Source: Melioribacteraceae bacterium (GTDB lineage Bacteria > Bacteroidota > Ignavibacteria > Ignavibacteriales > Melioribacteraceae). From it: 64,000 bases of DNA. The notes below the pieces were generated by a model. The model saw only the letters and a program-made list of their open reading frames with translations, ran no database searches and was not told the DNA's origin. The stretch is taken from positions 653,511-717,510 of the forward strand of contig CP129490.1 of assembly GCA_030584085.1 (NCBI GenBank), given 5' to 3'. This document shows positions 38,873 through 57,638 of the stretch, one piece after another. The position numbers were made by a program, and so were the translations under genes. Within the stretch, counting starts at the first letter, position 1. Each line of letters starts with the position of its first letter.

Positions 38873-39215
38873 TTCTCCTCATCTGCATATATTTATAAGT
38901 TGTTTCTATTTGCGTGCCAAAAAGCAGTTTTAAGAGTCTAAAATTATGCAAAAATAAGATCAATCGGTAATTTATTTTGAGGTAATAATTTGGCTTAAAG
39001 ATGTCTAAATTGTTGTTTTGTAAGTATTTAGCCGCGTTTAGAATTGCTCTAAGAATATGCAGAATGGGTATATTTAAATTTTAATAGAGCTTGTAAAAAG
39101 AGATAATGATTGACTTCTTATAAATGGGATGAGATGACTTTTTCTTTCTTAATTGATGGAAATAAAAAAGCTGTTACCGAATTAACGGCAACAGCTTTAG
39201 GAATGTTTTTACTTC
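38873..39215. other. Intergenic region between haem operon and cytochrome cluster
   Basis: About 340 bases. It holds the promoter of the haem operon on the minus strand and, at its right end, the terminator of the cytochrome cluster. No other structure or ORF with a ribosome site was seen. Confidence 0.5.
39164..39198 (-). terminator. Terminator of the porin-cytochrome cluster
   Basis: On the minus strand AAAGCTGTTGCCG pairs with CGGTAACAGCTTT (one G-U pair) around a short loop, followed by a run of T. It starts about 18 bases after the last cytochrome stop. Confidence 0.85.
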
Positions 39216-40073
39216 TTAAAAAATTTCTTTTTCACCATTAATGTGAAGTGTTTTATCAATAATATTGCCTTGCGCGTCAACAACTCTCGGGTGACAGTTC
39301 CAACATTGAGTTAAAGTAAATGAACCCGGGTGACCCATTGGCTGCGGAGTAATTAACTCACCTTCTTCATCTAATTCACCGTGACATGTTCCGCATTTAG
39401 CTTGTGATCCATCGTTTATTGTCCAATTCGGTGCAAAATTATTTCCGACAATCGGTACGCCTGAAGCCGCAATAAATTCGAAGTTACCATGACAATAAGT
39501 ATTTTGGCATGTCAATGATTCAAAATCATAAACGGCAACTGAATCTCCAAGATCAGCAAATTGCCCGAATATTACTTCAGCTCTGCTTCCGGCTTCATCA
39601 ATGTGACCTTCCGCAGTAAATGAATTTGGAACATGATGACATTCTGAACAAGCCACATTCTCTGCAATTTGAATTCCATATAAATGAACTTGATGAGCAC
39701 CAACAGCGTAATCTGAAGTGCTGGTTTCATTGTTGGTCCCTTGAGGCGGGGCAATATTAGACGGATCAGCGAAATCCCCGTGACAAGTATTACATGCTTC
39801 GGGTCCCATATCTTGTGAGTGGCATTTTAAACAAGTTACACCGACAGTTCCGCCGGCATAATTAGCGCCATGACATTGTGCACATGCAAATAGATTCCAA
39901 TTATCTTCACGAATTAATTGTCCGTGAAATTTATCGGAAAGTCGATTTTTTATTCCATCTTCATGAATCGATACTTCCTGAGGTTCGGTAAGATCATATC
40001 TCGATTCGGCGCATCCGACAAAGAATAAAGTTCCGACTAATAATAATATTGAATATGAGATAATATATTTCAT
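39216..40073 (-). CDS. Seven-haem c-type cytochrome lipoprotein
   Basis: A 285-residue lipoprotein (LLVGTLFFVGC lipobox). It has six CxxCH motifs (CAQCH, CLKCH, CNTCH, CSECH, CGTCH, CWNCH) and one CxxxxCH motif (CQNTYCH). The CxxxxCH/CxxCH mixture is the type found in outer-membrane cytochromes of Geobacter-like metal reducers. As the last gene after a porin and a 14-haem periplasmic protein, it is the candidate outer-surface cytochrome of a porin-cytochrome conduit; which face of the membrane it occupies cannot be read from sequence. Confidence 0.85.
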   Translation of the reverse strand: MKYIISYSILLLVGTLFFVGCAESRYDLTEPQEVSIHEDGIKNRLSDKFHGQLIREDNWNLFACAQCHGANYAGGTVGVTCLKCHSQDMGPEACNTCHGDFADPSNIAPPQGTNNETSTSDYAVGAHQVHLYGIQIAENVACSECHHVPNSFTAEGHIDEAGSRAEVIFGQFADLGDSVAVYDFESLTCQNTYCHGNFEFIAASGVPIVGNNFAPNWTINDGSQAKCGTCHGELDEEGELITPQPMGHPGSFTLTQCWNCHPRVVDAQGNIIDKTLHINGEKEIF

Positions 40074-40094
40074 TGTTAACCTGTAAAATTAATC

Positions 40095-41300
40095 TTAGTT
40101 ATTATGACAGTATGCACAAAATCCGAAATTCATGTTTCCACCCGGATAAGCGTTTGCATCAGTATGACAATTATAGCAAACCGATCCGGCATCATTGTGC
40201 CAATCACCATTATTGCTACTCATAAAGTTAATGTCATGTGTCTTAGGATTAGTCCCTTTTACACCGTCCGGATCAACATGGCATAAAATACAATTTGCAT
40301 CGGCGCCTTGAACATCATGACACGAAGCACATCTTTCAATATCTCTTCTAGCAAGTCGTGAATGTTCACCACCGCCCGAGCCAACTCCAATCATTACAAA
40401 TCCTTGTTGAAGATGTGATGATGGCATAATACCTTCGGCAGCAAAATCTTGATGATTCGATGAATGGCATTCAGCACAGAAAGTTTCTGTTTGATGACAA
40501 GTTTGACATTCCATCGTTTTACCTTTTGCATCAATACCGTGCAAGAATCTGTAATTCAAATCATGAACACGAGTAATAACTTGCTGTTTAGTATTATTCA
40601 AATATGTGTGCGGAGAATAAGGTGTATAAAAATTATCAACTAGGTTTGATTCATCAATTCCGATAGTTGCAACGTGGCAATCTTCACAGAATACATCATT
40701 ATGACACATTGCACAATCCGCTGTAGCTGCCATAGCCGAGAATTTGTGATTATCAAAAAATGAAGCTGTTCTATGATTTTGAGGAAGAAGATTATCGGTT
40801 GCAGTATGGCATGCCGAACATTCATTTGTTGCAACAGCTTTATCATTATGGCAAGAATAACATTGCATCATTGGTGGATTTGCTTGAGAAGATTCGAAGC
40901 TATAATTAATTTCTTCGAAATCTTTATGACATTCAGCACAATCCATTCCCTTTTCCGCTACGTGAAATTTGTGAGAGAAAATCAATTCCGATTTCTTTTG
41001 CAGTAAGGGTTCAAAAACATCATCATAATGACATGTTCCGCAAGCGTCCATGTCCTCAACATCATGGCACATTGCACATGCATCTTTTTCGGGAATCAGT
41101 CTGTCTGATAAAGACTCACTTTCAAGAACTCCTGTATGACATGATTCGCAATCACTTAATTCCGCATGCAGCGAATGCGAAAATATGATAATACTTTCGT
41201 TGGTCTTTTCTTGAGGTTCTTCTTGCGTGGTAAAAGCAGTGACAAAAATTACCGATATTCCCAAAATGAAAACTGCTAAGTACGTATATAATTTTTTCAT
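40095..41300 (-). CDS. Fourteen-haem periplasmic c-type cytochrome
   Basis: A 401-residue exported protein (signal helix YTYLAVFILGISVIFVTAF) with 14 CxxCH motifs spread from residue about 50 (CESCH) to the very end (CAYCHNN). Many extra histidines (FSHSLH, FSHKFH, NHQDF) are available as distal ligands. No membrane anchor follows the signal. It lies between the porin and the lipoprotein cytochrome genes, seven bases from the porin stop, so it is probably the periplasmic or in-barrel electron carrier of that trio. Confidence 0.85.
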   Translation of the reverse strand: MKKLYTYLAVFILGISVIFVTAFTTQEEPQEKTNESIIIFSHSLHAELSDCESCHTGVLESESLSDRLIPEKDACAMCHDVEDMDACGTCHYDDVFEPLLQKKSELIFSHKFHVAEKGMDCAECHKDFEEINYSFESSQANPPMMQCYSCHNDKAVATNECSACHTATDNLLPQNHRTASFFDNHKFSAMAATADCAMCHNDVFCEDCHVATIGIDESNLVDNFYTPYSPHTYLNNTKQQVITRVHDLNYRFLHGIDAKGKTMECQTCHQTETFCAECHSSNHQDFAAEGIMPSSHLQQGFVMIGVGSGGGEHSRLARRDIERCASCHDVQGADANCILCHVDPDGVKGTNPKTHDINFMSSNNGDWHNDAGSVCYNCHTDANAYPGGNMNFGFCAYCHNN

Positions 41301-41306
41301 ATTTTT

Positions 41307-42572
41307 CTAAAAGTTAGTGTTGAACCAGTGATTGATTTTAAAGAGAATTCGGAAATCATTATTATAAATTTTGTTTGATACATATTGTGTTTGAAGATCG
41401 AACGATAATTTGCTCCAAGGACGGATATTAATTCCGGCTAATAATGCGAGCAAATTATTTTTTGGGTCATTTTCCGATAGTCTATAACTTGAAACCGTAA
41501 GTCCGAACGAAGGAGTAATAAATCCGTCATCGAAAGAACGTGCCGTATAAACCGAGAATGAATTAAGTTCGCCAGCATAACCAAAAGATGTTCTGTAGCT
41601 AACAGTTCCGTAAGTGGTATTTACTCCCAAGGTTAATCTTTGAGAATCTTCGTCTTGATAAGTAACATTAGCAAATTTTCCGAAAGCAGTTACAACATCG
41701 CTGAACTTATAATCCAATCCGCCTTCAATTTCTTCAGTATTGGAGAAATTAAATACAGAGAAAATTGAATTGTATCTAATTCGTGGTTCACGGTAATTAT
41801 AGTAAAGTGAAACCCCGAAATCTTCAACTTGAGTATAGCGAGTCCCGATCTCAAATCTTGATGTTTGCTCAAAATTTAGATCGTAATTATACCTTGAATT
41901 AATTTCTATTAGTTTGGGGATATAATAAGAAACTTCAGCACCCAAATATTTGAATTGGTTAGAAGCTCGTTGAATAAGAATTGTATCAAGCACGTTAAAC
42001 TCATTCAAACGGATTGCATCATAATCTTGGGCTTTGAAATTTTTGTCGGTATAATTAACTGCAATTCTCAATTCATCAGTTGGATAAACGGTAAGTTCAC
42101 CGCCAAGAATAAAGTCATTAGCAAAGTCGTCGGTTAATTCCAGTTTCTGATATTCCGGAACATTACCACCGTAGAAACCTTCTAATTTGAAAATCCCATG
42201 TCTAAGTTGAAGATTAACACCGTCGTACAATCCACCTGCAACGCCATTATAAAGAGACTGTCTTCCAAGTCGAATTGTGGCAACATTCAATAAATTTCTA
42301 GCTTCAACATAAAGATTATAGAATCTTAAGCGCGGATCGTTGTTCAGTGAATTTGCAATATTGGTTTCAAAATTTAAACGTGATCTTAGAGTGATGTTGT
42401 CTTTTGATAAATTAAAATAAAGTGAGCTAAGTGATCTAACATTTAATTCCGAAACTTCAGGAGCAGAAAATCGCTCAAAAGTATAGAGGGAAGTTGAGAA
42501 TCTTCCGTTTAAATTTTGAGCCGTCACCACTAAAGTAGTGAACATGACGGCTGCAATTAAAATCTTTTTCAT
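41307..42572 (-). CDS. Outer-membrane beta-barrel porin of the cytochrome cluster
   Basis: A 421-residue protein with a signal peptide (ILIAAVMFTTLVVTAQ), alternating hydrophobic beta strands throughout and a terminal aromatic residue (HWFNTNF), all signs of an outer-membrane barrel. No family name can be given from sequence; the LGRQSLYNGVAGGLYDGVNL part resembles alginate/phosphate-type porin strands. Its place between cytochrome genes suggests it houses a multihaem wire, as MtrB or ExtB-type porins do, although it is much shorter than MtrB (about 700). Confidence 0.75.
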   Translation of the reverse strand: MKKILIAAVMFTTLVVTAQNLNGRFSTSLYTFERFSAPEVSELNVRSLSSLYFNLSKDNITLRSRLNFETNIANSLNNDPRLRFYNLYVEARNLLNVATIRLGRQSLYNGVAGGLYDGVNLQLRHGIFKLEGFYGGNVPEYQKLELTDDFANDFILGGELTVYPTDELRIAVNYTDKNFKAQDYDAIRLNEFNVLDTILIQRASNQFKYLGAEVSYYIPKLIEINSRYNYDLNFEQTSRFEIGTRYTQVEDFGVSLYYNYREPRIRYNSIFSVFNFSNTEEIEGGLDYKFSDVVTAFGKFANVTYQDEDSQRLTLGVNTTYGTVSYRTSFGYAGELNSFSVYTARSFDDGFITPSFGLTVSSYRLSENDPKNNLLALLAGINIRPWSKLSFDLQTQYVSNKIYNNDFRILFKINHWFNTNF

Positions 42573-42589: not shown

Positions 42590-43132
42590 TTATTCAGTTG
42601 GCACATTGTGTTTAATCTTTTCGTACATCTCAGCAAACTTAAATTCTTTGTAAGTAGGACTTTTTTCATTATGGCAAGTTCTGCATTGAGCTTCAATCGC
42701 TTTGTCATCAGCCCAAACTACTAAACCAGCAGCAACAGAAGCGGCTTGATCTTTCATAACTTTCATAGGGCTGTAATCTTTGCCTGCACCGTGACAAGTT
42801 TCGCATTGCACGCCTGCGGAAACTTCAAATCCTTTTTCCATTCTTGAAGCTGGAAGATCATAACCGGTTGCATGACAAACTAAACATTCTTTTGTTTCAG
42901 CAGCTTTTGTTTTAAAGCCTTTTTCTGCAGCAATTTTATCAGCTTCAGCTGTTGTTAAGGTTTTGTAAGCATTTGCGTGTGCTGAACCTTCCCATATTGA
43001 AAGTTGTGAGCCTTGTTTTTCAGTTTTGTGACACATTGAACATTTTTTTACACCAATGTAATTGAACTCTTGCGCGTTAATTGTTAAAGCGATAAACGAT
43101 AACGCAATTACTGCTAGCCAGAGTTTTTTCAT
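42590..43132 (-). CDS. Tetrahaem cytochrome c554-family protein
   Basis: A 180-residue exported protein (signal LWLAVIALSFIALTINA) with four CxxCH motifs: CSMCH, CLVCH, CETCH and CRTCH. YIGVKKCSMCHKTEKQGSQL and the segment around HATGYDLPA, GVQCETCHGAGKDY match the cytochrome c554/c-prime family, small periplasmic electron shuttles. AGGAGG lies before the ATG, one of the best ribosome sites here, so it may be made in large amounts. Confidence 0.88.
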   Translation of the reverse strand: MKKLWLAVIALSFIALTINAQEFNYIGVKKCSMCHKTEKQGSQLSIWEGSAHANAYKTLTTAEADKIAAEKGFKTKAAETKECLVCHATGYDLPASRMEKGFEVSAGVQCETCHGAGKDYSPMKVMKDQAASVAAGLVVWADDKAIEAQCRTCHNEKSPTYKEFKFAEMYEKIKHNVPTE

Positions 43133-43236: not shown

Positions 43237-45678
43237 TTAGAGTCCTTTTAAGCGCTCAATAACCCAATTTCTTAATTCCGGATCATTTTCCATTTCGGCT
43301 GACATAATTTCGTCAGGATTTGCGCCATGTTTTTTCATCGTATCTAAGAATAATTTTGTCGAATGACTAACTTCGTCAATATTCTTTTGTTCTTCTTTAA
43401 CTTGCATCCATTCCAAAGCAATTTTTTTGAAATGTCTTTCGTGATGATGTCTATATCTGTGTAAACTCATCTTACCATCAACCCACACAAAACTCATAGG
43501 GTATTCACTCGGTCTGAATATTACAAAGAACCAATGCCATACAAAAATTGCAAGAGTCGCAAGTATTGCTTCGTAAAAGTGAATTGTTTCACTAACTTTT
43601 ATTAACCAAACCGGCGCCCAATCATCAACTATAGTTGGGAACCATAATATTAATCCTGTGACACCCATTACTATTGTACCCCAAACCAAAGCCCAATATT
43701 CGGCTTTTTCGGTATAATCAAACTTGCTGAATTCAGGGGGATGTTTCCTCAATCTTAAATAGTACATGAGATTTTGAGTCGCTTCTTTGATATCCTCAAA
43801 TTTTGGAGCCATGTGAGAAAGTACATCACGACCGCGTTTAGTAATAACCAAATAAATCACGTGATATAAACTCAGGACTATCATCACAACAGCAGCAATT
43901 CTGTGAATTAATTGTCGAATATCTTCAGACATTCCAAATTGATATAAACCATCTGCCCACCAGCTGAATGGGTATTTCAAAGCGAAGCCTGTAATTGCCA
44001 AAGTGAAGAAAGAAGTAAATAATAAAACGTGTTGAATAACTTCATTCCTTGTGAATCTAGGTATAAGAATTTCTTTTCTTTCATTCTGTTTGCGTTTTCT
44101 TACTTCATGAACATATATAAGAAGGTTGTGAAGAATCATTCCGCCGATAATAACAACAATTAACCAGAAATAAATTGTAGAAACTAAATCCTCAACTTGT
44201 TGAGCTTCTTTATTCTGTGATATATGAGAATAACTTTTCGCAAAAACCGGTTTTGCATCTGGATGACATTTTTGACATGTCTGCAAAACCTTTTCTTCAC
44301 TAACTGAAGAAGCGGGATGTTTTTGCGGGAGTATATCGTGTACATTATGACAATCAATACAATATGCTGCGTTCGGATCATTTCTTTTAACTGCCAAGCC
44401 GTGATAGCTATCTTGGTAACTATATGCTTCAGTTTGTGATAGTCCCAATCGTGATGTAAGTATCGGATCTTGATGACAAGAAATACAAATTTCTTCTTGG
44501 AACTGCTTTACCGAATAAGTGCCTTCCGCTAATTCTTTTGCACGGGGACTGTGTTCGCTGTGGCAATCACTACAAATCGGTGCAACTCTTAATCCTTTTT
44601 GAGCGCCGATCCAATGAATTGAATTTTTATAATCATGAACAACATCGGCATGACATTGTTCACAAGTCTCATTTAAATTAAATGTAGAAATTTTAGAGCC
44701 AGGTTGAATTCTGTTTTTGATATCATGAACTCCGTGACAGGTCGAACAGTTCATGTCGATATCTTTACCTTGTGCCATTAATGTATAATGGAAAGAGTCT
44801 TCGAATCTTAATCCTGATCTGACGTTTATTAAATTAAACTTCTCTGCAAATTTCGCATCGTCGTGACATACACCGCAAGTATGACCAAGATTTTCGTTTG
44901 AAACTTTGCTGGCTGGATTGTTTACATGTAATACCTCATGAGAACCGTGGCAATCCCAGCACGCTGCAGCTTCGGTAATTCCGTCGCTAAGTGAAATACC
45001 GTGAATACTTTCTTTGTGTTGATCGGCTTGTTCTTTATGGCACACATAGCAGCTAGCAACTTCAACTTTATTGAAATTATCGGGGTGATCGTCTAGTTTA
45101 CTTGCAATTGCCGAATGGCAATCATTACAAATTAAATCCTTATGAACAGATTGAGATAATTGAGGAGCAAAATCTTCAGTTGAATGACAATCCGCACAAG
45201 CATTATCTTCAATTTTTTGAACAGAGTGGAAAGGTCTCATTAACAATTTCGTTTCATGACAACTCGAGCAATAATCACGAGCTTTATTAGGACTATCTTC
45301 CGGTGGTTTTACGTAATGAGAACCATGGCAGTCAATACATTCGGGTGGATTTTTTACTCTGTCCTTTAGGCGATGATGAACATCATTTTGAACAATCGAA
45401 TAAATTTCTTCATGGCAATCAGCACACTCAACTTTATAAATATCCGTTCCTTCTCTATGCGGTAAATTTTCGCCATCAAAATCTGTGTGACAATCGGCGC
45501 AGTCGAACATTCCGTGAACTGAGTTCGAATATCGATTACCATCTATAAAGAGGGAAATTTCTTTTCCTTTTCTTTCATATGTTAAACTCTGATCTTCGTG
45601 ACAAACTAAGCAATCATCTTGAGCTGATATAAATAGGTGAGTGACTAAAAAAAGTAATAGAAATTTCGAAATTTTCAT
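43237..45678 (-). CDS. CbcL-like fusion: 16-haem c-type domain plus cytochrome b domain
   Basis: An 813-residue fusion. After a signal peptide come 16 CxxCH motifs (first C23, last C468), mostly with histidine-rich CHGxH and SxH partners. A membrane helix (about 502-522) leads to a four-helix b-type cytochrome domain (about 540-760; IQHVLLFTSFFTLAITGFAL, IHRIAAVVMIVLSLYHVIYL, ALVWGTIVMGVTGLILWF, IHFYEAILATLAIFVWHWFF). The b domain is of the HydC/FdnI type. The same architecture defines Geobacter CbcL, a menaquinol oxidase for low-potential extracellular respiration, but CbcL has nine c haems. Quinol oxidation is inferred from that likeness. Confidence 0.85.
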   Translation of the reverse strand: MKISKFLLLFLVTHLFISAQDDCLVCHEDQSLTYERKGKEISLFIDGNRYSNSVHGMFDCADCHTDFDGENLPHREGTDIYKVECADCHEEIYSIVQNDVHHRLKDRVKNPPECIDCHGSHYVKPPEDSPNKARDYCSSCHETKLLMRPFHSVQKIEDNACADCHSTEDFAPQLSQSVHKDLICNDCHSAIASKLDDHPDNFNKVEVASCYVCHKEQADQHKESIHGISLSDGITEAAACWDCHGSHEVLHVNNPASKVSNENLGHTCGVCHDDAKFAEKFNLINVRSGLRFEDSFHYTLMAQGKDIDMNCSTCHGVHDIKNRIQPGSKISTFNLNETCEQCHADVVHDYKNSIHWIGAQKGLRVAPICSDCHSEHSPRAKELAEGTYSVKQFQEEICISCHQDPILTSRLGLSQTEAYSYQDSYHGLAVKRNDPNAAYCIDCHNVHDILPQKHPASSVSEEKVLQTCQKCHPDAKPVFAKSYSHISQNKEAQQVEDLVSTIYFWLIVVIIGGMILHNLLIYVHEVRKRKQNERKEILIPRFTRNEVIQHVLLFTSFFTLAITGFALKYPFSWWADGLYQFGMSEDIRQLIHRIAAVVMIVLSLYHVIYLVITKRGRDVLSHMAPKFEDIKEATQNLMYYLRLRKHPPEFSKFDYTEKAEYWALVWGTIVMGVTGLILWFPTIVDDWAPVWLIKVSETIHFYEAILATLAIFVWHWFFVIFRPSEYPMSFVWVDGKMSLHRYRHHHERHFKKIALEWMQVKEEQKNIDEVSHSTKLFLDTMKKHGANPDEIMSAEMENDPELRNWVIERLKGL

Positions 45679-45708: not shown

Positions 45709-46584
45709 TTATCTATATAAGAATATCATCGAATAAATAATCATTACGACAATTATTAATCCGGTTATTAATGCCGTGAAGCCGAAAATTCTTGCACCTT
45801 TAACTAACCATTCCGGTGGGGGCGGTGCTAATCTCGATTCTAATTTATTTGTATCAACTAAAATTTGGTATTCGCGTGGTCTATCTTTTTTAAATTCTTC
45901 CAACGGAACTCTTCCTGTAAAGATTACATTATCCATCGGGAATTTATCCGGTCTAAAATGAGTATTGAAAAAATGAATTGTAAAAATAAATCCGGTCGCA
46001 AGTAATGCTTCATCACTATGTACAATAGTTGCTACATTTATCAACCAGCCGGGCAAACCTAAACCTGTGAAAAATTCCGAAAACCATAATAACAAACCAC
46101 TGGAACCAATTACAGTAATTCCCCAAAACACTGCAAAGTAATCAAACTTTTCCCAATAGGTCCATCTACCGTAGTCCGGACGTTTTCCTACACCAAAGAA
46201 CCATTTAATAGTTCCGATAAACTCTGTAAGATCTCTTTTATTTGGAACCATAGAGTTTTCGCCGGAGAACATATGCTTATAAGATCTTTTTTCTTTGGTC
46301 ACTTTTTTAATCAGATAACCAATATGAAGTATAAAATAAGCGAAAGTAATTATAGCGGCGAATCTATGAATGAATCCGGTTACTTCGTATCCACCCATTA
46401 GTTTTGAAGCAAATTGAAAAATTCCAACACCGGAAAATTTGATGGTCATTCCGGTTACAGCGAGCGCAATAAAACTTAAAATAACAAGTATATGTAAGAA
46501 ACTTAGAAATGGTTCGAATCGCCAAATGTATTGCTCATCATGATTTTCTAAAGTTTCACTTTTTCCTAAATCTTTATTTTCCAT
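45709..46584 (-). CDS. Cytochrome b (HydC/FdnI-type) membrane subunit
   Basis: A 291-residue protein with four core helices and paired histidines (FLSFLHILVILSFIALAVTG, GFIHRFAAIITFAYFILHIG, GSSGLLLWFSEFF, VHSDEALLATGFIFTIHFF) plus a C-terminal helix. It is a free-standing relative of the b domain in the downstream 813-residue fusion; both share the FRPxxxPM segment (FRPDKFPMDN here, FRPSEYPMSF there). It overlaps the 19-haem gene by one base and would be its quinone-site partner. Confidence 0.88.
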   Translation of the reverse strand: MENKDLGKSETLENHDEQYIWRFEPFLSFLHILVILSFIALAVTGMTIKFSGVGIFQFASKLMGGYEVTGFIHRFAAIITFAYFILHIGYLIKKVTKEKRSYKHMFSGENSMVPNKRDLTEFIGTIKWFFGVGKRPDYGRWTYWEKFDYFAVFWGITVIGSSGLLLWFSEFFTGLGLPGWLINVATIVHSDEALLATGFIFTIHFFNTHFRPDKFPMDNVIFTGRVPLEEFKKDRPREYQILVDTNKLESRLAPPPPEWLVKGARIFGFTALITGLIIVVMIIYSMIFLYR

Positions 46585-48560
46585 TAATCGGTGTTTCCTT
46601 CTTTCTTTTTATTTTTCAATTCACGTTCTTTCTTCTCTTTTCTTTTTTCAGCTAATCCCCTTGGCAACCAAAGTAGAGTATGAGCTCCAAAGAATAAGAA
46701 AGTTCCGGTTAACAAAATAGTCATAAACCAAAATGTATAAAACAAAAATGGATATTTATCTTTATCGTGATGTGTCGCGTGTGTTAAATATCCAACGAAT
46801 TTTCTGTTGGAATTTTCATGACAAGATTTACAAGTTTCGACAATATTATCTCTGTGAAGTGTAGATTTAGGCTCATAAGTCGGAAGAATATTATGTGCGC
46901 CATGGCAATCATAACATTTAGCCGCACCAACCGAACCCAATTTTGAAACTTTGCCATGAAACGTATCAAAATAAGTATCAGTTACATCTTCATGACATCT
47001 GCCGCATTGGTCTATTATTTCTGCTCTAAAATCGTCTTTATCTGTTCTTTTTATCGTATGCGCTTGATGACAATCCTGACATCCCGGTAATTCTTTGTCT
47101 GTTTTAGTAACGAGCGGACTGTGAATGCTTTGTGTAAATTGTTCATAAATTCCGAGGTGACATTTAGCACATGTTTCTCCGACATTATCTTTGCTGATTG
47201 TAGATAATGGATTGCTTTCAGGTAATTCTCTATGAGCTGAATGGCAATCGACACAGGTAGCGGTAACAGTTAAACCGGATTCGAGCAGGCTTCCGTGAAT
47301 ACTCTGTGTATAATCTTTAATAATACCTTCGGCATCTTCAACCATGCCTTTAGCAACTCCGCCGGGGCTGTGGCATTCTCCGCAAAGTTTGGGAACATTT
47401 CTTGAAAATGTTGGAGATGTTCTGTCTTTTTTCAACTGAACTTTATGATCTCCGTGGCAATCAGTACAATATGGTGCATCTAAATTACCACTCATCAATT
47501 CCATAGAATGCTGACTTAACTCCCAGTCTTCAACTTGACTTGCGTGACAAACAGAACAATCAACCTTACCGCTTTCATAACATATTGGATCATTAAATGG
47601 AGTGATATTAGTGTGACATTTAATACATGAGTTATCTTTGTGAACTGAATGTTTTAAATCGTTTACATCAACAAAGAGACTTTGTGGTTCACCGTTAACT
47701 TCTCTGGTTAAATTTTCGTTTCCGTGACACGACATACATTTTTGATCATCGTATTTCTGATCATAAAAAACTCTTCTCACTTCATGCGGTTGGTGACAAT
47801 CTATACAAGCCGGAATTGAATGGGGTTGTTTTTCCCATAATTCACCACGTATAACTTTCGTGTGGACTTTTTCGATTTGAGTGTGACATTGCATACAAGT
47901 TGAAGCAATATTATTTCTGTTAATAGAAGAATTTGGATTTTCATGCGGAAGAATATTATGTGTAAAGTGACAACTAGTACATACGGCGGTTACGATTAAA
48001 CCTCTTCTGAATAACCCATCGCCGTGAATTGATTCTTTATAATTTTCAAGGATATGACTTTGGGAGATATTTCTTAAACCAGAAACTTGTGTGCCTTCTT
48101 TATGGCAGCTTCCGCACAGATTTGGAATGTTCATAACATAAGTCTTAGAATTTTCATCTGTGTGAGAAAGGATATCATGTTTTCCATGACAAGTTGCGCA
48201 TGAAGGGGCCAAGAATTTACCTTTTTCTAAAGCTTGGCCATGTAAACTATTCTCATACATTTCGGCGGGTTTATCATGGCACATTGCGCAATCAACTTTA
48301 TAAATCTGCTCGCCTTCACGATGGGGGATATCTTCGGGATCAAAATCCTGATGACAGTCAACACATTCCAAATCAGCATGAACGGATGTGTTAAACTTTG
48401 ATTCATTAACAAAAAGTGATACTAATTTATTGTCTCGTTCATAGGACAATGATTTGTCACCATGACACATCATACATTCGTCATTTTGTGCCGAAATTTG
48501 TACAATAAGTGAAAAGAAAATTAATAGTGACCCAACATTTCTAATTTTTTTGATCATCAT
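46584..48560 (-). CDS. Nineteen-haem membrane-anchored c-type cytochrome
   Basis: A 658-residue protein with a signal peptide, 19 CxxCH motifs and one C-terminal membrane helix (FWFMTILLTGTFLFFGAHTL) followed by a basic tail. Haems fall into two homologous modules of eight (from CMMCHGDKSL and from CMSCHGNENL) and a final three. Within each module the order of side motifs is the same, for instance SLFV...SVH, CxxCHGxH and CxDCHxxHxELP/ILP. The N-terminal module also resembles the start of the 813-residue fusion. It is the first gene of the seven-gene minus-strand unit. Confidence 0.88.
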   Translation of the reverse strand: MMIKKIRNVGSLLIFFSLIVQISAQNDECMMCHGDKSLSYERDNKLVSLFVNESKFNTSVHADLECVDCHQDFDPEDIPHREGEQIYKVDCAMCHDKPAEMYENSLHGQALEKGKFLAPSCATCHGKHDILSHTDENSKTYVMNIPNLCGSCHKEGTQVSGLRNISQSHILENYKESIHGDGLFRRGLIVTAVCTSCHFTHNILPHENPNSSINRNNIASTCMQCHTQIEKVHTKVIRGELWEKQPHSIPACIDCHQPHEVRRVFYDQKYDDQKCMSCHGNENLTREVNGEPQSLFVDVNDLKHSVHKDNSCIKCHTNITPFNDPICYESGKVDCSVCHASQVEDWELSQHSMELMSGNLDAPYCTDCHGDHKVQLKKDRTSPTFSRNVPKLCGECHSPGGVAKGMVEDAEGIIKDYTQSIHGSLLESGLTVTATCVDCHSAHRELPESNPLSTISKDNVGETCAKCHLGIYEQFTQSIHSPLVTKTDKELPGCQDCHQAHTIKRTDKDDFRAEIIDQCGRCHEDVTDTYFDTFHGKVSKLGSVGAAKCYDCHGAHNILPTYEPKSTLHRDNIVETCKSCHENSNRKFVGYLTHATHHDKDKYPFLFYTFWFMTILLTGTFLFFGAHTLLWLPRGLAEKRKEKKERELKNKKKEGNTD

Positions 48561-48921: not shown

Positions 48922-50418
48922 ATGAAACTCAAACTTCCCGAATCTTCTTATAACTGGATTTCATTAGTGGGGGCGACAATCGCATCAATTAGTTTTTTCA
49001 TGATTGTTTTTCTCTTCATAATCTCATCGGTATTCGATCGTGGGGGTTCGTATCTCGGTTTAGTCGTTTATATAATTCTTCCGGCGTTCTTGATTGCCGG
49101 TCTAGTTTTGATTCCTATCGGTATGATCTGGAAAAAAAGAAGAATCAATAAACATGGCGATTCAGAAAAAAGATTACCTCTAATTGATTTGAATAATGAA
49201 AGACACAGAAATGCTTTCACAATTTTTATTGTTGGAACAATATTGTTTTTATTCATTTCAGCCATCGGTAGTTATGAAGCATTCCATTACACTGAATCGG
49301 TTGAATTTTGCGGAACTGTTTGTCACAGTGTGATGGAGCCTGAATATGTAGCGTATCAATATTCTCCGCATGCAAGAGTAAGCTGCGTTGATTGTCATGT
49401 CGGTGAAGGTGTTGACTGGTATGTGCGTTCAAAACTTTCCGGGCTTAGACAAGTCTACGCAGTTCTTGCCAATACTTATCCGACTCCAATCCCAACTCCG
49501 ATTACGGACCTGCGTCCTGCAAGAGAGACTTGTGAAAGATGTCACTGGCCGGAAAAATTCTATGCTCAAAAATTTAGATTGGAAAGACACTACTTAAATG
49601 ATGAAACAAATAGCGAATGGGATATTTACTTAACCATGAGAATCGGTGCAACACATAGCGCACTCGGTTTAACCGAAGGAATTCACTGGCATATTAATCC
49701 GGACGTAAAAATTGAATACATTCCAGCAACCGAAAAACGCGAAGAAATTCCCTGGGTCAGATATACAAACTTAAAAACCGGTGAAGTAACAATTTATGAA
49801 GATCAAGATAATCCAATTGATCCAGCTGAAATGACTAACATGAAAGTGAGAGAAATGGATTGTATGGATTGTCATAATCGTCCTTCGCATAATTATAAAC
49901 CACCGGCATTTTTTGTTAATAATGCACTTACCGCCGGAACAATGCCGAAAGAGTTGCCCGAACTAAAATCAATTTCTATGGAAATTTGTTCTGAAGAATT
50001 TGAAACTAGGGAAGAAGCAAATGAATATATAAGAACAACTCTGTCGGAGTTTTACGAAAGTAATTATCCCGAATTTGATCAAGCATTAGTTGAAAAAGCA
50101 ATTGTTGGTTTACAAACAGAATACAACAGAAATATTTTCCCGGAAATGAAAGTTAAATGGGATCAATATCCTAATCATATTGGGCATGTTGAGTTTAACG
50201 GCTGCTTTAGATGTCATAATGATTTACATATGAGTGAAGAAGGGAAAGTAATTTCGAAGGATTGCAATCAATGTCATTATATTACTGCACAAGGACCGCC
50301 TGATAATCTGCAAGTTGCTAGTATTAATGAATCACTTGAGTTTGTTCATCCGACTGATATTGATGAAGCTTGGAAAGATTTTCTGTGCACGGATTGCCAC
50401 ACGGGTTTGAACCCCTAA
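48922..50418 (+). CDS. ImcH-like NapC/NirT-family seven-haem inner-membrane cytochrome
   Basis: A 498-residue protein with three membrane helices (about 12-37, 44-70, 99-118) followed by a periplasmic haem domain. Motifs: one CxxxCH (C130-GTV-C134-H135, in EFCGTVCHSVMEPEY) and six CxxCH (CVDCH, CERCH, CMDCH, CFRCH, CNQCH, CTDCH). The first four haems are NapC/NirT-like. Length, three helices and seven haems match Geobacter ImcH, a quinol oxidase used with higher-potential extracellular acceptors. It would feed electrons from menaquinol to periplasmic carriers. It is monocistronic with a strong terminator. Confidence 0.85.
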   Translation: MKLKLPESSYNWISLVGATIASISFFMIVFLFIISSVFDRGGSYLGLVVYIILPAFLIAGLVLIPIGMIWKKRRINKHGDSEKRLPLIDLNNERHRNAFTIFIVGTILFLFISAIGSYEAFHYTESVEFCGTVCHSVMEPEYVAYQYSPHARVSCVDCHVGEGVDWYVRSKLSGLRQVYAVLANTYPTPIPTPITDLRPARETCERCHWPEKFYAQKFRLERHYLNDETNSEWDIYLTMRIGATHSALGLTEGIHWHINPDVKIEYIPATEKREEIPWVRYTNLKTGEVTIYEDQDNPIDPAEMTNMKVREMDCMDCHNRPSHNYKPPAFFVNNALTAGTMPKELPELKSISMEICSEEFETREEANEYIRTTLSEFYESNYPEFDQALVEKAIVGLQTEYNRNIFPEMKVKWDQYPNHIGHVEFNGCFRCHNDLHMSEEGKVISKDCNQCHYITAQGPPDNLQVASINESLEFVHPTDIDEAWKDFLCTDCHTGLNP

Positions 50419-51683: not shown

Positions 51684-52481
51684 TTATATCTGATCCGAAC
51701 TGCATGAAGATAAATTTTTCATCTCATATTCAATGTCAGTGGGTATAACTCTATACAACCAACCATTAAAAAACGGATCTTTCTCTATTATGCTATTATT
51801 GTTAATTACAGCTTCATTTCGTTCAATAATTTTACCGGAAATTGGTGCAAGCAAATCATGGATATAAACATCATCTTCAATTAATTTTGCACAAGAGCTT
51901 CCTTGGTAAATTTCTTCTTCGATTTCCTTTAATGTGAGATTGTTATAGTTATCAATTGTCTTTAAGAATAAATCCGTTGCTCCTACTAAAGCTGAACCTT
52001 CATCTGTTATGTGAACCCAAGAGAATAGCCCAAGCCGGAAATATTTCGATGGACAATTAACATAAACTATATCAGTAGTTTCTTCTTCTTTGACTTTATA
52101 TCTAATACGAATAAAATTTTTGGCTCTATAAAGAGCGCTTAGTATTTCATCTACCTCAAATGGTTTTGGGATATAATCAATCGCTCCTTCATTCAAAGCT
52201 TTAACAGCATTCTCTAATGTTGAATAGCCTGTGATCATTATAACAGGTGTCTCGATTTTTCTTAATTGAAGCGTTTCTAAAAATTCGAAACCATTCATTT
52301 CCGGCAGCATTATATCTGAGAGAATCAAATCAAATTTATCTTTTGAAAGAAGTGAAAGACCATCTTCTGCGGTTAATGCAAAAGATGTTTGGAAATCTTC
52401 TAAAGCACAAATCTTTTCTAGAGAATCAACAACAACTTGTTCATCATCCACAATTAATATTTTTAATTGTTTTTCCTTCAT
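51684..52481 (-). CDS. Response regulator with GcvH-like domain
   Basis: A 265-residue protein with a receiver domain (residues 1-125; DD12-13, D56 in ILSDIMLPEMNG, K106 in IPKPF) followed by a GcvH-like domain (about 143-248; FSWVHITDEGSALVGATDLF, LLAPISGKIIERNEA, FFNGWLYRVIP). At the position of the lipoyl lysine the sequence reads KLIEDDVYIHD, with no lysine. It overlaps the kinase gene by four bases (ATGA), so it is translationally coupled and is the likely first partner of that kinase. No DNA-binding domain is present. Confidence 0.82.
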   Translation of the reverse strand: MKEKQLKILIVDDEQVVVDSLEKICALEDFQTSFALTAEDGLSLLSKDKFDLILSDIMLPEMNGFEFLETLQLRKIETPVIMITGYSTLENAVKALNEGAIDYIPKPFEVDEILSALYRAKNFIRIRYKVKEEETTDIVYVNCPSKYFRLGLFSWVHITDEGSALVGATDLFLKTIDNYNNLTLKEIEEEIYQGSSCAKLIEDDVYIHDLLAPISGKIIERNEAVINNNSIIEKDPFFNGWLYRVIPTDIEYEMKNLSSCSSDQI

Positions 52482-54361
52482 TGTTTTCTAATCGGCTCCA
52501 TTGGTAAACTTATTATGAATTTTGTGCCGACATTAACTTTGCTTTCCACTTTTATGTTGCCATCATGATTATCAATAATTCCCCATATAACGGCTAGACC
52601 AAGCCCGGTGCCTTTTTGACCTTTTGTGCTGAAAAACGGATCAAAAATTTTGGATAGATTTTCTTGAGGGATTCCACTTCCGTTATCTTCAATTGTTATT
52701 TGAATAAATTCTCTTCTTCCACTTGATTCAACCTGTGGCCATAATTGCCAATAGCAATTTTTATTTATACATCCTTTTAATTGACCTTCGCCCGGAGTTT
52801 CAATTTTATAGATTGGTGAATTGCATTCGGGACATTTTTCATTTTCATCAAGTAAAGAAATACTGCAAGTTGGGCATTCAAGTGAGAAAGGTTTATTTGT
52901 ATTGACTATCATCTCAGCATCATGATCCTTTTTCCCGTAAGTTGCGTTAAGGTTAATCAATCCATCTTTTTCATCTTGCTCAGCTAATAATTTTATCGAA
53001 GGAAGTCCGTCAATCTTATGGTGATCGTCCAACAGATTGTGTCGCTTACCGCATTCGGCTTTTTTAATTTGAATAACACCGAAAGGTGAAAGTTCAATAA
53101 GTTTTGTACTTACTTTTATATTTCCGCCACCGCTACCGATTGCATCCGACGCATTTACAATTAAGTTTATAAAAACTTGCTGCATCTGATTAGAATCAAC
53201 AATAATTGTCGGAAGATCAGGTTGATAATCTCTTTCGAATTTAACTTTATTCATAGTTAGCTGATTTTCGATAACCGTATAAGCTCGATCAATTATTTCA
53301 TTTATATCAGCTTTATTTTTCTTTGGAACCGATTGTCTAGCAAAATCGAGAAGTCCTTTAACAATTTCACGACTTCTTTTTGTCTCGCGAACAATTACTT
53401 TTAAGTCTTCTTGAAATTCGGGATTATCTTTTGTTCTTTTTAACAAAAAACTACTGTAAGTTAAAACTCCGGTCAATGGATTATTAATTTCGTGTGCAAC
53501 ACCGGCTGCTAATTTGCCAAGCGAAGCCATTTTATCAGATTGAAACAATTGCATTCTAGCTTCTGCAAGTTTGTGTGTCATATTATTAAACGAAGTCGCA
53601 AGCATACCTAGTTCGTCATTCTGTGTTTTATCAATTGTATATTGAAGGTTACCCGCAGCAACATTTTTTGTCGCAGTTACAAGTAAACTAACCGGTTTTA
53701 CAACCCAACGGCGTATGAAGAAAATAATTATTAAGCTAATCCCTACAATCGAAATTATTGAGAATAGTAATATGTTTAATTCACTTTTTGATATTTGTTT
53801 ATCAATATCTTCTAAGCCCAAGGTTATATCAAGAACGCCAAGTACAGTTTGATTTTCAGTATGCGCGTGACAAGGAGCATTATAACAATTCACTTCATTA
53901 TAAATTGGATTTATAATTCCAAGTACACGAATTCCTTTAGCTTCATCTCTAAATATTCTTGTTCGCTCGTTCATTGATAAACGTGTAAGAGGTTCATCTT
54001 TGGCATGACATGCAAAGCAGCTTTCGCCTTGCATGTCAACCATTTTACCGATGTCATTATTTTCGGCCGAATAAATTATCTCTCCGGCTTTATTAAATAT
54101 TCTTACTTGTTTAATTGAAGGTTCTTCGCCGATTGTATTAATCATGTTATGAATACTTTCACGGTTGTTTGCAAGCATTTCAAAATGCATACTTTTCTTT
54201 AATGCTTCACTCAATTGATTACCGTGACGTTCTACCTCATCCAGCAACACGGATTGTTGAGATTTGATAGCAATAAATCCGTAAACTCCAATAATAATAA
54301 GGGAAGTGGCCCCAACAACCGAAATTAATTTGAACCCTATTTTACTTACATAGTGTTTCAT
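52478..54361 (-). CDS. Dihaem-sensing histidine kinase with zinc-ribbon insertion
   Basis: A 627-residue kinase. Helix about 11-31, a periplasmic domain (32-195) with two c-type haem motifs (C115-FA-C118-H119 and C159-YNAP-C164-H165), helix about 196-217, HAMP (218-272), then the phosphoacceptor H290 in GVAHEINNPLTGVL. The HATPase N box is NLIVNASDAIG (399-409) and the G boxes are EDNGSGIP (558-565) and GTGLGLAVIWGI (584-595). Between them an insertion of about 120 residues carries C496-x2-C499, C510-x2-C513, C531 and C536, a zinc-ribbon pattern. It senses redox state or a haem ligand, and lies three bases after the 13-haem gene. Confidence 0.88.
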   Translation of the reverse strand: MKHYVSKIGFKLISVVGATSLIIIGVYGFIAIKSQQSVLLDEVERHGNQLSEALKKSMHFEMLANNRESIHNMINTIGEEPSIKQVRIFNKAGEIIYSAENNDIGKMVDMQGESCFACHAKDEPLTRLSMNERTRIFRDEAKGIRVLGIINPIYNEVNCYNAPCHAHTENQTVLGVLDITLGLEDIDKQISKSELNILLFSIISIVGISLIIIFFIRRWVVKPVSLLVTATKNVAAGNLQYTIDKTQNDELGMLATSFNNMTHKLAEARMQLFQSDKMASLGKLAAGVAHEINNPLTGVLTYSSFLLKRTKDNPEFQEDLKVIVRETKRSREIVKGLLDFARQSVPKKNKADINEIIDRAYTVIENQLTMNKVKFERDYQPDLPTIIVDSNQMQQVFINLIVNASDAIGSGGGNIKVSTKLIELSPFGVIQIKKAECGKRHNLLDDHHKIDGLPSIKLLAEQDEKDGLINLNATYGKKDHDAEMIVNTNKPFSLECPTCSISLLDENEKCPECNSPIYKIETPGEGQLKGCINKNCYWQLWPQVESSGRREFIQITIEDNGSGIPQENLSKIFDPFFSTKGQKGTGLGLAVIWGIIDNHDGNIKVESKVNVGTKFIISLPMEPIRKQ

Positions 54362-54364
54362 TTC

Positions 54365-55489
54365 TTACAATCTTTCTCCCGGTTCATAATCGGGATAAGT
54401 TATATCTTCATCGTGACAAGTTGAACAAACCGGAGTTTTCTTGAAGTCATTATTTTCATGACAAACATCGCAAGTCCACTCAATATGATTTTCACTTAAA
54501 CTCAGACCAACAATTCTGTGATCAAAATTATCAGGAGCCCAGTTTTCATGGCATGAATTACAATTGCTATTTAAACCTGTATATACTTGACTAGTTGTAT
54601 GACATTTCACACAGCCTAATTTATTATGATATTTTCCCAAGTCGAAACCGGTTCGCTGTTTATGATTGAAGGGTTTTAACTCTTCAGTTCTGTGGCAACT
54701 TTCACAATTGTCCTCCGTTTCATGGCAAGATGCACACTTCTGATGCTTAACGGTGAATTCCATTTCAACATCTTTAACCGGTGTCTTCTTATCATGACAA
54801 GCTGCACAACTTTCGTTCTTATGGCAACTAGCACATTCAAATCCGTATAAAGAGGTGTGTTCATTATGGAAGAAAGTTACAAGGGTCGATTCATATTCTT
54901 TCGAATCATACACGATTTTTGTCGGCTCTATAATTTTCGGATGAACTCTATCGGTAGTTTGTGTTTTTTTATCGAAAGCTGATTTACCGCTTGAATTCAA
55001 TTCGTGACAACTTTTACATTCAACTTTTTCTTCCCATTGTTTATGGCAGTCAATACATTGTCTGTGAAACGCTGCTTTTAAATCCGGTTTGGAAATATCT
55101 TGTCTAACTCTCGATGCGGAGTGACATTGGCTGCATGATACTACATTTCCGGGAGGATTATAGTGATGGCACATTTCACATCCGTTCGACATTCCGGCCA
55201 TTTCCGCATGAAGTCTATGTGTAAATTGAACAGGTTCATATAAATCTTCAACGGATTTCATTTTATTCAATACAATGATATCTGGAGATTCTTCAGGAGA
55301 TTGATAAACAGTTATCATCATTTCTCGAGGACATTCGATTAAACAGGGATCCGATTTTGTCGGTGTATCACAAGCGTGGCAAGTATTACAACTAAAATTC
55401 ATATTCTTGTGAGATTGTGCATTGATTGTAAATACAAATCCAATCACAAAAAATAATAATGCTATATGTGTTTTTAATTTTTTCATCAT
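54365..55489 (-). CDS. Thirteen-haem c-type cytochrome of a Hmc/Cbc-like complex
   Basis: A 374-residue exported protein (signal IALLFFVIGFVFTINAQ) with 13 CxxCH motifs. The first, CNTCHACDTPTKSDPC, is followed by an odd cysteine pair (CLIEC) outside haem motifs. Others run from CEMCHH (about 104) to CSTCH near the end. The type is that of the periplasmic cytochrome of Hmc, Tmc or Cbc complexes. Its start overlaps the NrfD gene, so the two subunits are made together. It would accept electrons from the membrane subunit and pass them to periplasmic carriers. Confidence 0.88.
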   Translation of the reverse strand: MMKKLKTHIALLFFVIGFVFTINAQSHKNMNFSCNTCHACDTPTKSDPCLIECPREMMITVYQSPEESPDIIVLNKMKSVEDLYEPVQFTHRLHAEMAGMSNGCEMCHHYNPPGNVVSCSQCHSASRVRQDISKPDLKAAFHRQCIDCHKQWEEKVECKSCHELNSSGKSAFDKKTQTTDRVHPKIIEPTKIVYDSKEYESTLVTFFHNEHTSLYGFECASCHKNESCAACHDKKTPVKDVEMEFTVKHQKCASCHETEDNCESCHRTEELKPFNHKQRTGFDLGKYHNKLGCVKCHTTSQVYTGLNSNCNSCHENWAPDNFDHRIVGLSLSENHIEWTCDVCHENNDFKKTPVCSTCHDEDITYPDYEPGERL

Positions 55490-56724
55490 GCACCTTTGAT
55501 TGCATATTTAGCTTTTTGAATTGCACCTTTTACAGGCTGACTGATAATCGGGAATATCATTACAAATGCTCTATAAAGAAGAATTTCTAGAGCAACAAAT
55601 CCTAATGTTACAAATATTTCACCAACTGATGGGAAGTAAGATGCATCGGTATAAGGCGGATCATATGCGATCACAAAATTATTAAACCGATTTAAGAGAA
55701 CTCCGAATATTACCAACATCGAAGCAATATAGAGTCCCGTCGTGTTTTCTCTAACGGCAGGCGAGAGAAACATCCTTAGCGGTATAATAACTCCTATTAC
55801 CATTTCAACAGTAAACATTATACTTGCTGTATTTATTTCAGCTAGATAAACAAAAGATTCGCGGATGAACATATCGCCAAGTTTAGCAGCGAGATAAACT
55901 CCAAGCAATGGTCCTACAAATCTTGATAAACTAGTTAGAACTTCTTTCTCGGGTTTCATACCAAATGATTTTGATGCCGTTAGTGACTCCATAATTACCA
56001 TTGGAAATCCGACTGAAAATGCTGATAATAAAAATAGAAGCGGTAATACTGGAGTTTGCCATAATGGATGCATTTTTTCACCGGCAATAATCATTAATGT
56101 GCCGAGAGAAGATTGATGTAAACACGAAAGAACTACACCGGCAATAATAAATATCCACATTACTTTGTTAAGAGTTCTATCCAGCACATGGAGAATTTTA
56201 TCAACAATTTTATTAAACGCTTTTAAGAAACCGGGTAGATTAACTTTTCCCATAAATCTTTCCGTCACCATCGGAAGAAATTCAATATATAGAACAGTTA
56301 GATAAAACATAACGCAAATACCTACTTCAAAAAGTGCGGAGTTACCGTTCCACATAATAAGCGGATGCCAGATATAATACCATCTACCGATATCTGTAAA
56401 TACTCCGAATGCGACAAATGTATAGCCTAGTAAGGCGGTTAGTAAAGCAGGTCTCACTAAAACTTCATATTTATCGCGATGCCAAATGTGACCAAGTGCG
56501 GCAGTTGTAAAACCACCGGCAGCTAAAGCAACACCGGCAGCAACATCTAACCCGATCCAAATTCCCCATGGATAAAAGTTATCCAAGTTTGTAACAGCAC
56601 CGAGTCCGAATAAAAATCTTCCTAATAAAAATGTCATCCCGATTGCAGCAATAATTGCTATAAATATTACTCCAGGAGTGAAATATTTATGTTTTACGGG
56701 GATAGGTTGTAGATTATGTTCCAT
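55486..56724 (-). CDS. NrfD/HybB-family quinone-reactive membrane subunit
   Basis: A 412-residue protein with about ten membrane helices and no cofactor motifs, of the NrfD/HybB/PsrC family that exchanges electrons with quinones. NLDNFYPWGIWIGLDVAAGV near the start, GRWYYIWHPLIMWNGNSALF and LHQSSLGTLMIIAGEK are typical HybB-like pieces. Start and stop overlap the neighbouring genes (TAATG upstream, ATGATG downstream). With the FeS and 13-haem subunits it forms a transmembrane redox complex like Geobacter Cbc or Desulfovibrio Hmc. Confidence 0.92.
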   Translation of the reverse strand: MEHNLQPIPVKHKYFTPGVIFIAIIAAIGMTFLLGRFLFGLGAVTNLDNFYPWGIWIGLDVAAGVALAAGGFTTAALGHIWHRDKYEVLVRPALLTALLGYTFVAFGVFTDIGRWYYIWHPLIMWNGNSALFEVGICVMFYLTVLYIEFLPMVTERFMGKVNLPGFLKAFNKIVDKILHVLDRTLNKVMWIFIIAGVVLSCLHQSSLGTLMIIAGEKMHPLWQTPVLPLLFLLSAFSVGFPMVIMESLTASKSFGMKPEKEVLTSLSRFVGPLLGVYLAAKLGDMFIRESFVYLAEINTASIMFTVEMVIGVIIPLRMFLSPAVRENTTGLYIASMLVIFGVLLNRFNNFVIAYDPPYTDASYFPSVGEIFVTLGFVALEILLYRAFVMIFPIISQPVKGAIQKAKYAIKGA

Positions 56725-57638
56725 TATTCATCCTCCCCATGTTTCTTTTCTTTATTTTTTGAGACCCACATAATTCCTCCAAGTAAAGCATAAAGAGCAA
56801 TCGGTGGAACGAAGTAAGCAAAAATTCCATGCTGAATTGATTCGGATACACCGGGAGCGGGATTATTTTTGAGTTTTGGAAAATCAAATTCATGGAAATC
56901 TCTACTTGCCATGTACATCCAAGATGTTCCGCCTACTTCGGTATGACCATAAATCTTGTTGATGTAACGATCAGGATATAATTCCATTCTTTTTTCTGCG
57001 ATCGCAATTAGATCTCGTCTTTTACCATAAGTGAGAGCTTCAACAGGACAGATTTCTACACAACCGGGCAGTAATCCCTCGGCAGTTCTTTCATGGCAGA
57101 AATCGCATTTTCTAATATCAGGTTCAATAGCTTTGTCATACTCGAAAGTTGGAATTTGGAAGGGGCAGGCAACCATACAATATCGACAGCCGATACACAT
57201 ACCGGTATCCCAAATAACCGAACCATCTTCTTTTTTTGAAAAAGCACCGACAATACAAGCCGAAACACATGCGGGTTGATCACAATGCATACATTGAACT
57301 TTTACATTAATCGGATGATATGGTTGATCCGGATTATCATAGCGGTTAACAACGGTATAACCCTCGTTATGAGGTCTACGCATCTTGTTGAATACCTCTT
57401 CGTCGCTATAAGTTTCGATATCGCCGGCATCGTAACCATGTGTTTTTTTACACATCCATTCACATCTTCTACATCCTATACATACAGTAGTATCTACAAG
57501 CACACCCATTCTATCCTCGGATAGATTTTTCATATCGGCAGCCTTTGCCTCTTTGGGAGAAAGTGCACTCAAACCTGCAACTGTTCCTCCTAATGCGGCA
57601 GATACTTTTAGGAAATCTCTTCTTGTTTGTTTTCCCAT
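56724..57638 (-). CDS. Tat-exported four-cluster FeS subunit (HybA/HmcB-like)
   Basis: A 304-residue protein with a Tat signal (TRRDFLKVSAALGGTVAG). Cysteine groups for four [4Fe-4S] clusters are present: CIGCRRCEWMC, CMHCDQPACVSAC, CIGCRYCMVACP and CDFCHERTAEGLLPGCVEIC. A C-terminal membrane helix (FAYFVPPIALYALLGGIMW) follows. The CDFCH here is a cluster ligand group, not a haem site. It is the first gene of the operon that continues through NrfD, the 13-haem cytochrome, the kinase and both regulators. Confidence 0.93.
   Translation of the reverse strand: MGKQTRRDFLKVSAALGGTVAGLSALSPKEAKAADMKNLSEDRMGVLVDTTVCIGCRRCEWMCKKTHGYDAGDIETYSDEEVFNKMRRPHNEGYTVVNRYDNPDQPYHPINVKVQCMHCDQPACVSACIVGAFSKKEDGSVIWDTGMCIGCRYCMVACPFQIPTFEYDKAIEPDIRKCDFCHERTAEGLLPGCVEICPVEALTYGKRRDLIAIAEKRMELYPDRYINKIYGHTEVGGTSWMYMASRDFHEFDFPKLKNNPAPGVSESIQHGIFAYFVPPIALYALLGGIMWVSKNKEKKHGEDE

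Follow-up and report, generated by a model that had tools for sequence, protein, structure and literature searches.

Gene set and its conservation

The window analysed here, a stretch of 64,000 nucleotides from Melioribacteraceae bacterium (contig CP129490.1 of assembly GCA_030584085.1; host genome of 3.74 Mb), carries on its minus strand a porin gene, a gene coding for a 14-haem cytochrome and a gene coding for a multihaem lipoprotein. Together, these very probably encode an electron conduit of the porin-cytochrome (Pcc) kind, a type known from earlier work on Ignavibacterium album (PMC4245776). As an earlier note on this DNA had proposed, the three open reading frames (ORFs) are consecutive at positions 39216-42572. 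The gene set extends beyond this interval: in transcription order, it consists of a 4-haem c554-like gene, the porin, the 14-haem cytochrome and the lipoprotein, with intergenic gaps of 17, 6 and 21 bases. CXXCH motifs number 14 in the 14-haem protein and zero in the porin. As for the lipoprotein, described in the earlier note as a 7-haem protein, it possesses only six CXXCH, and the figure of seven holds only when an atypical CX4CH (aa, amino acid, 189) is counted. The set is closed by a terminator-like hairpin that begins 17 bases past the lipoprotein stop codon and has the longest stem in the scan, although the scan as a whole gave no excess over shuffled sequences (6 sites vs. 5.7 expected). 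The porin is 99% identical to that of the Ignavibacteriales metagenome-assembled genome SURF_28.

Table 1. Features of the conduit locus and its surroundings, in window positions
Feature	Positions	Strand	Basis
Porin (outer-membrane beta-barrel), 421 aa, predicted 22 transmembrane strands	41307..42572	-	ORF, AlphaFold2 model, superposition
14-haem secreted c-type cytochrome, 401 aa	40095..41300	-	ORF, motif count, family/PDB matches
Multihaem lipoprotein, 285 aa, 6 CXXCH + 1 CX4CH, presumed surface-exposed electron outlet	39216..40073	-	ORF, motifs
4-haem secreted protein of 180 aa, like cytochrome c554, usually present upstream of the porin	42590..43132	-	ORF, motifs, family match
Terminator-like hairpin of 13 pairs with a T-rich tail, at the end of the gene set	39167..39198	-	hairpin scan
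Fusion of a 16-haem cytochrome and a cytochrome b561-type membrane domain, 813 aa, apparently of CbcL-like plan, candidate quinol-side partner	43237..45678	-	
Cytochrome b561-type membrane protein, 291 aa	45709..46584	-	
19-haem cytochrome, 658 aa, C-terminal hydrophobic stretch (seen in sequence)	46584..48560	-	
Putative quinol dehydrogenase module at a greater distance upstream: 13-haem cytochrome, NrfD-type membrane subunit and ferredoxin-type subunit	54365..57638	-	

The porin was found in 49 of 58 relatives (45 of the 51 good genomes), which suggests that the conduit is near-standard in the respiration of one bacterial order, not a rarity. Loci were fetched for 47 of the 49, the window's own and that of genome G001 being left out; a second set of named contigs comprised the best 80 of 149 relatives' loci, partly from the same assemblies. 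The 14-haem gene directly follows the porin in 47/47 relatives and on 79 of the 80 named contigs, the remaining one being cut off. The lipoprotein comes next in 43 of the 47 relatives (cut off by the contig in three, absent in one) and on 76 named contigs (four cut off), while the 4-haem gene lies upstream of the porin in 42 relatives (two cut off, three absent) and on 73 named contigs (six cut off, one absent). The order of the porin and 14-haem genes is far beyond chance. The homologue search thus bears out the conserved trio that the earlier note had anticipated, and porin homologues devoid of cytochromes did not occur in the sets examined.

Concerning more distant relatives, 395 genomes were drawn from the window's own phylum. 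The porin profile matched 57 of them, all in its own class and 20 outside its own order; this restriction to the class is a result for the one phylum drawn, and the named-contig scan covers the best 80 of 149 loci. In these 20 class members, with frames taken from stop to stop, the ORF after the porin always holds CXXCH motifs, 14 of them at 17 loci and 12 at three, and the next one, defined by its motif count, holds 5 to 18. In 12 of the 20, the start of a 3-4-haem ORF lies within less than 1 kb upstream of the porin frame. All nine porin-less relatives are without a full-length match to the 14-haem protein, while all six control genomes have one. A protein of ca. 190 aa matching only its N-terminal 6-haem part is present in five of the nine and five of the six, respectively.

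Barrel, wire and tip

The AlphaFold2 model of the porin, built from a 76-sequence alignment, has a mean pLDDT (predicted local distance difference test) of 85.8 and a pTM (predicted template-modelling score) of 0.76. It displays 24 strands of at least three residues, of which the 22 long ones were counted as membrane strands, whereas two short ones (184-189 and 195-200) sit in one long loop and probably lie outside. Turns on the presumed periplasmic side span 2-7 residues; judging from the strand list, this agrees with an even number of strands and with chain ends that both lie in the periplasm. Short loops account for the short chain of the porin, and its length is nearly constant: 417-427 aa in 76 of 77 sequences and 436 aa in the remaining one, with start codons picked by rule. 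The width of a pore cannot be read from the length of its chain: with short loops, 421 residues are enough to form a closed barrel of 22 strands. The strand count therefore goes against the unusually small barrel of the earlier note: Pcc porins have 18-22 predicted strands (PMC4245776).

Among structures superposed with VIA-align, the barrels of TonB-dependent transporters match the model best, with a Z of 20.6 for PirA (over model residues 19-418) and 19.5 for BtuB (338 residues aligned, root-mean-square deviation of 4.3, model residues 19-417 on chain residues 134-594). The barrels of such transporters consist of 22 strands and enclose a plug domain of more than 100 residues. MtrB was not among the 50 VIA-align matches listed, an absence that carries no weight. 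In standard barrel geometry, with assumed shear numbers, the C-alpha radius is about 20 angstrom for 22 strands vs. 23.5-24 angstrom for 26; the pore would thus be moderately narrower than that of MtrB, not clearly too narrow for a haem-bearing polypeptide. Of the strand positions taken to face inward, 38 of 132 are conserved at 95% or more, vs. 12 of 135 outward ones, and the inward positions bear a net positive charge in 72 of 76 porins (mean +6.6). The mature 14-haem protein is net negative in 72/72 sequences (mean -20.9). These opposite charges and the conserved inward face would fit a wire inserted in the barrel, without proving insertion.

In searches of the family libraries, no curated family was found above its cut-off for the window porin, and its profile retrieved no relevant solved chain from the PDB, the one unrelated chain having an E-value of 0.13. 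Two barrel families were considered and dismissed, their matches being read as a shared barrel pattern: LptD (PF04453), with 20.9 bits for a cut-off of 22.4 and matches in 9 of 29 porin family members at E-values up to 0.1, and the general outer-membrane barrel family PF13505, matched by 3 of the 29 (members other than the window's were judged by E-value, not by cut-off). Plasmid searches with the porin and with the 14-haem protein gave no match.

The 14-haem cytochrome falls into two parts. The N-terminal one (aa 27-167) contains six haems in two c7-type triheme domains; taken alone, it matches TIGR04257 in two stretches (50.3 bits, cut-off 40) and PDB entry 3ov0 (E 1.4e-13). The C-terminal part (aa 168-401) contains eight haems and matches c7 families only at its end. 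Searched alone against the PDB, it found no cytochrome, two enzyme chains at E 0.2 being taken as chance. It is nevertheless the more strongly conserved of the two: with haem-site Cys and all His left out, 22 of 200 positions are invariant in the C-terminal part vs. 3 of 119 in the N-terminal one. Of the 14 histidines outside CXXCH, 12 are invariant in 72/72 sequences and two are not, which leaves two haems that may have a sixth ligand of another kind. Motif number hardly varies among the 77 frames long enough to count: 14 in 74 of them and 13 in three. The OmaB protein of Geobacter has eight haems (PMC4245776), and our guess is that the 8-haem C-terminal part is its counterpart. Elsewhere in the window's genome (G000:C1:1713778-1714305, plus strand), a protein of ca. 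190 aa resembles the N-terminal 6-haem part; it is perhaps an ActA or QrcA-like subunit, which is again a guess.

The lipoprotein carries a CxxxxCH/CXXCH domain above cut-off (PF09698, TIGR01904), and its lipid anchor is predicted from the sequence. By a loose test, a Cys occurs 12-32 residues after a Met in 70 of the 72 frames from relatives that exceed 240 aa; in the 71-row alignment, this Cys is conserved partly by construction, because only rows with a Cys 12-32 residues after a Met were kept. Among 77 frames in the named loci, eight are cut by the locus end. In the remaining 69, the number of CXXCH ranges from 5 to 28 and is most commonly six; the exception is locus L152, with two adjacent frames of three motifs each. 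At least one CX4CH is present in 68 of the 69 uncut frames. Some of the high counts may be due to fusions or insertions. The largest one was observed in Melioribacteraceae Zod_Metabat.461 (L079), with 28 CXXCH in 876 residues vs. the usual six. At locus L066, no multihaem ORF lies within 6 kb behind the 14-haem gene on that strand, i.e. a conduit without an adjacent surface cytochrome.

Type of conduit, electron flow and alternatives

Shi et al. (2014; PMC4245776) described in I. album the porin IALB_1839 beside IALB_1838, a 14-haem protein of 400 aa that was then the largest Pcc periplasmic cytochrome known. The window set shares with it the gene pair, the haem number, the size of the periplasmic cytochrome and the bacterial class. 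No difference was found, the likeness being by published description and not from a comparison of the sequences themselves. The different conduit type that the earlier note had considered possible from porin size is not supported. That note had also grouped OmbB with MtrB as much larger porins, while the 2014 paper sets Pcc porins as a group, OmbB included, apart as much smaller than MtrB. Porin, periplasmic multihaem and outer-membrane multihaem genes, so located by prediction, are adjacent as in published Pcc; the 22 modelled strands and the 14 haem motifs lie within the published ranges, the latter being 5 to 14 for Pcc periplasmic cytochromes (PMC4245776).

The plan of a porin, a periplasmic and an outer-membrane multihaem cytochrome is also that of OmbB/OmaB/OmcB of Geobacter, and the atypical haem site of the window lipoprotein has its like in Pcc outer-membrane cytochromes, in which such sites are frequent (PMC4245776). 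The window set differs from Geobacter Pcc by the 14 haems of its periplasmic protein (vs. 8), the seven sites of its lipoprotein (vs. 12 haems) and the usual 4-haem gene upstream. With MtrCAB of Shewanella it would share the working principle; it has a 14-haem wire vs. the decahaem MtrA, and 22 strands vs. the 26 found in the MtrB structure (PMC12133095) or the 28 predicted (PMC4245776), a strand number in the porin model that does not agree with an Mtr-type barrel. An MtrB-type porin was likewise rejected, TIGR03509 being without match in the window porin, in 29 family members (E 1) and in the window's genome (E 0.001), and so was an MtrA/DmsE-type wire (TIGR03508, 16.9 bits for a cut-off of 192.2). 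Across 76 genomes of the order, TIGR03509 matched five, none over the cut-off. The one strong match, an MtrB-like porin (G047:C19:2200-4635, locus L183; E 3e-48), is under the curated cut-off; one MtrB-like porin in an Ignavibacteria genome has also been published (PMC7399161). Finally, a seven-gene cluster from an anode organism, Bacteroidetes_1, which rose 39-fold on the electrode, comprises six multihaem proteins and one beta-barrel with best hits in Bacteroidetes and Ignavibacteriae (PMC8258643); by this description, it is possibly identical with the window set.

The conduit set most likely carries respiratory electrons out through the outer membrane, function and direction both being deduced from the genes. 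Quinol would be oxidised at the inner membrane by neighbouring b/c-type cytochrome or NrfD-type modules, and the periplasm would be crossed via multihaem cytochromes, perhaps the 4-haem c554-like protein. Within the 22-strand barrel, the 14-haem protein would have its 8-haem C-terminal part inside and its two c7 domains extending into the periplasm, and the surface lipoprotein would hand electrons to an acceptor outside the cell, for example Fe(III). This reading is based on the genes, their haem motifs, the barrel prediction, the conserved order and the joint presence or absence of the porin and 14-haem genes. A mainly inward flow, in which external donors (Fe(II), electrodes or other cells) would feed the quinone pool, is improbable, even though operation in either direction has been suggested for quinol/quinone modules of the CbcL/MtrH/MtoC kind (PMC6295460) and the class includes facultative aerobes such as M. 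roseus (PMC3534657): M. roseus, which presumably carries the same set, may use Fe(III), as well as arsenate and nitrite, and its NrfC/NrfD pair (Mros1571-1572) was proposed to supply multihaem cytochromes together with a hypothetical Fe(III) reductase of the outer membrane (PMC3534657). As to origin, a new type of separate descent, unrelated to both MtrCAB and the Geobacter Pcc family, would accord with the missing curated family and solved chain for the porin, with the 29 family members giving no MtrB match and with the I. album pair being only distantly related to other Pcc groups (PMC4245776). It is nevertheless rather unlikely, since the gene plan and strand number are those of Pcc and since searches with Geobacter porins led to 'OmbB-like' PCCs in two Ignavibacteria genomes (PMC7399161) and to Geobacter-pcc homologues in Ignavibacteria (PMC6137239), M. 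roseus being among the organisms for which these two papers describe such porins.

Several points weigh against an outward conduit as drawn here. Besides the TonB-dependent transporters, VIA-align also gives ushers (Z 18.4) and, with fewer residues aligned, smaller porins (Z 17.4), so that the match is unspecific. The top Foldseek matches are ushers and many ordinary porins, their TM-scores not exceeding about 0.5; the strand count therefore rests on the porin model, not on a structural match. Inward and outward positions were assigned by strand parity and hydrophobicity, not from coordinates, and the AlphaFold model of the 14-haem protein (mean pLDDT 59.5) is poor past about residue 150, too weak for a structure search or a barrel fit. 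One genome (L066; G052:C48) has the porin and 14-haem genes with no lipoprotein behind, three of the nine genomes lacking both genes are less than 90% complete, and the correlation of porin and 14-haem distances (Pearson 0.74, Spearman 0.51) was computed with no unlinked control gene. Mutual binding of the proteins and the movement of electrons are themselves deduced. The Foldseek matches would suit an ordinary solute channel that chances to share an operon with cytochromes, which is hardly credible given that the 14-haem gene adjoins the porin in 126 of 127 loci (overlapping sets), i.e. in all with room for it, and that both are missing together in 9/9 genomes.

The Pcc conduit set is real, well conserved and of a published kind, and the argument for its newness from size fails. 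The new details are modest, and new only within the literature searched: a constant 14-haem wire is combined with a lipoprotein of 5 to 28 CXXCH. More tentatively, and with somewhat less than even confidence, Ignavibacteria might own a vertically inherited conduit lineage whose sheath, minimal with its 22 strands, would equal a TonB-dependent transporter in width. A single polypeptide would then provide both the wire within the barrel (8 haems) and an arm in the periplasm (two c7 domains with 6 haems), and the lipoprotein would be a changeable tip that tunes the constant wire to different acceptors. Such a combination would suit as a model for what the surface cytochrome decides. Members of the order have been reported from anode communities, groundwater and hot springs (PMC7399161, PMC6137239).

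Neighbouring genes and candidate inner-membrane partners

Upstream of the conduit genes lie the candidate quinol-side modules of Table 1; the ferredoxin-type subunit of the most distant one is named from its sequence. Farther upstream are also what are presumably two response regulators and a sensor kinase, whereas the genes downstream of the set presumably serve haem biosynthesis. The putative sensor kinase (52478-54361, minus strand) lies next to the two regulators, contains a CXXCH at aa 115 and a CX4CH at aa 159, and possibly bears a c-haem. Homologues of all three regulatory genes occur within the same cluster in several relatives. Amid the cluster, on the opposite strand (48922-50418, plus), an NrfH/NapC-like cytochrome of 498 aa with six CXXCH and one CX3CH resembles in plan ImcH as described in PMC6295460.

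The genome G010 (locus L045), inferred to be that of M. roseus, carries the same conduit set, with an nrfD homologue within the same cluster; by our estimate, its position agrees roughly with gene number 1571. Stygiobacter electus, too, possesses the conduit set (L112). In the main text of a multi-omics study of M. roseus (PMC5492636), the words porin, multiheme, outer membrane and extracellular are absent. At L045 (10794-13195, minus strand), the 16-haem/cytochrome b fusion has a homologue that is divided between two frames which overlap, owing to a frameshift or a sequence error.

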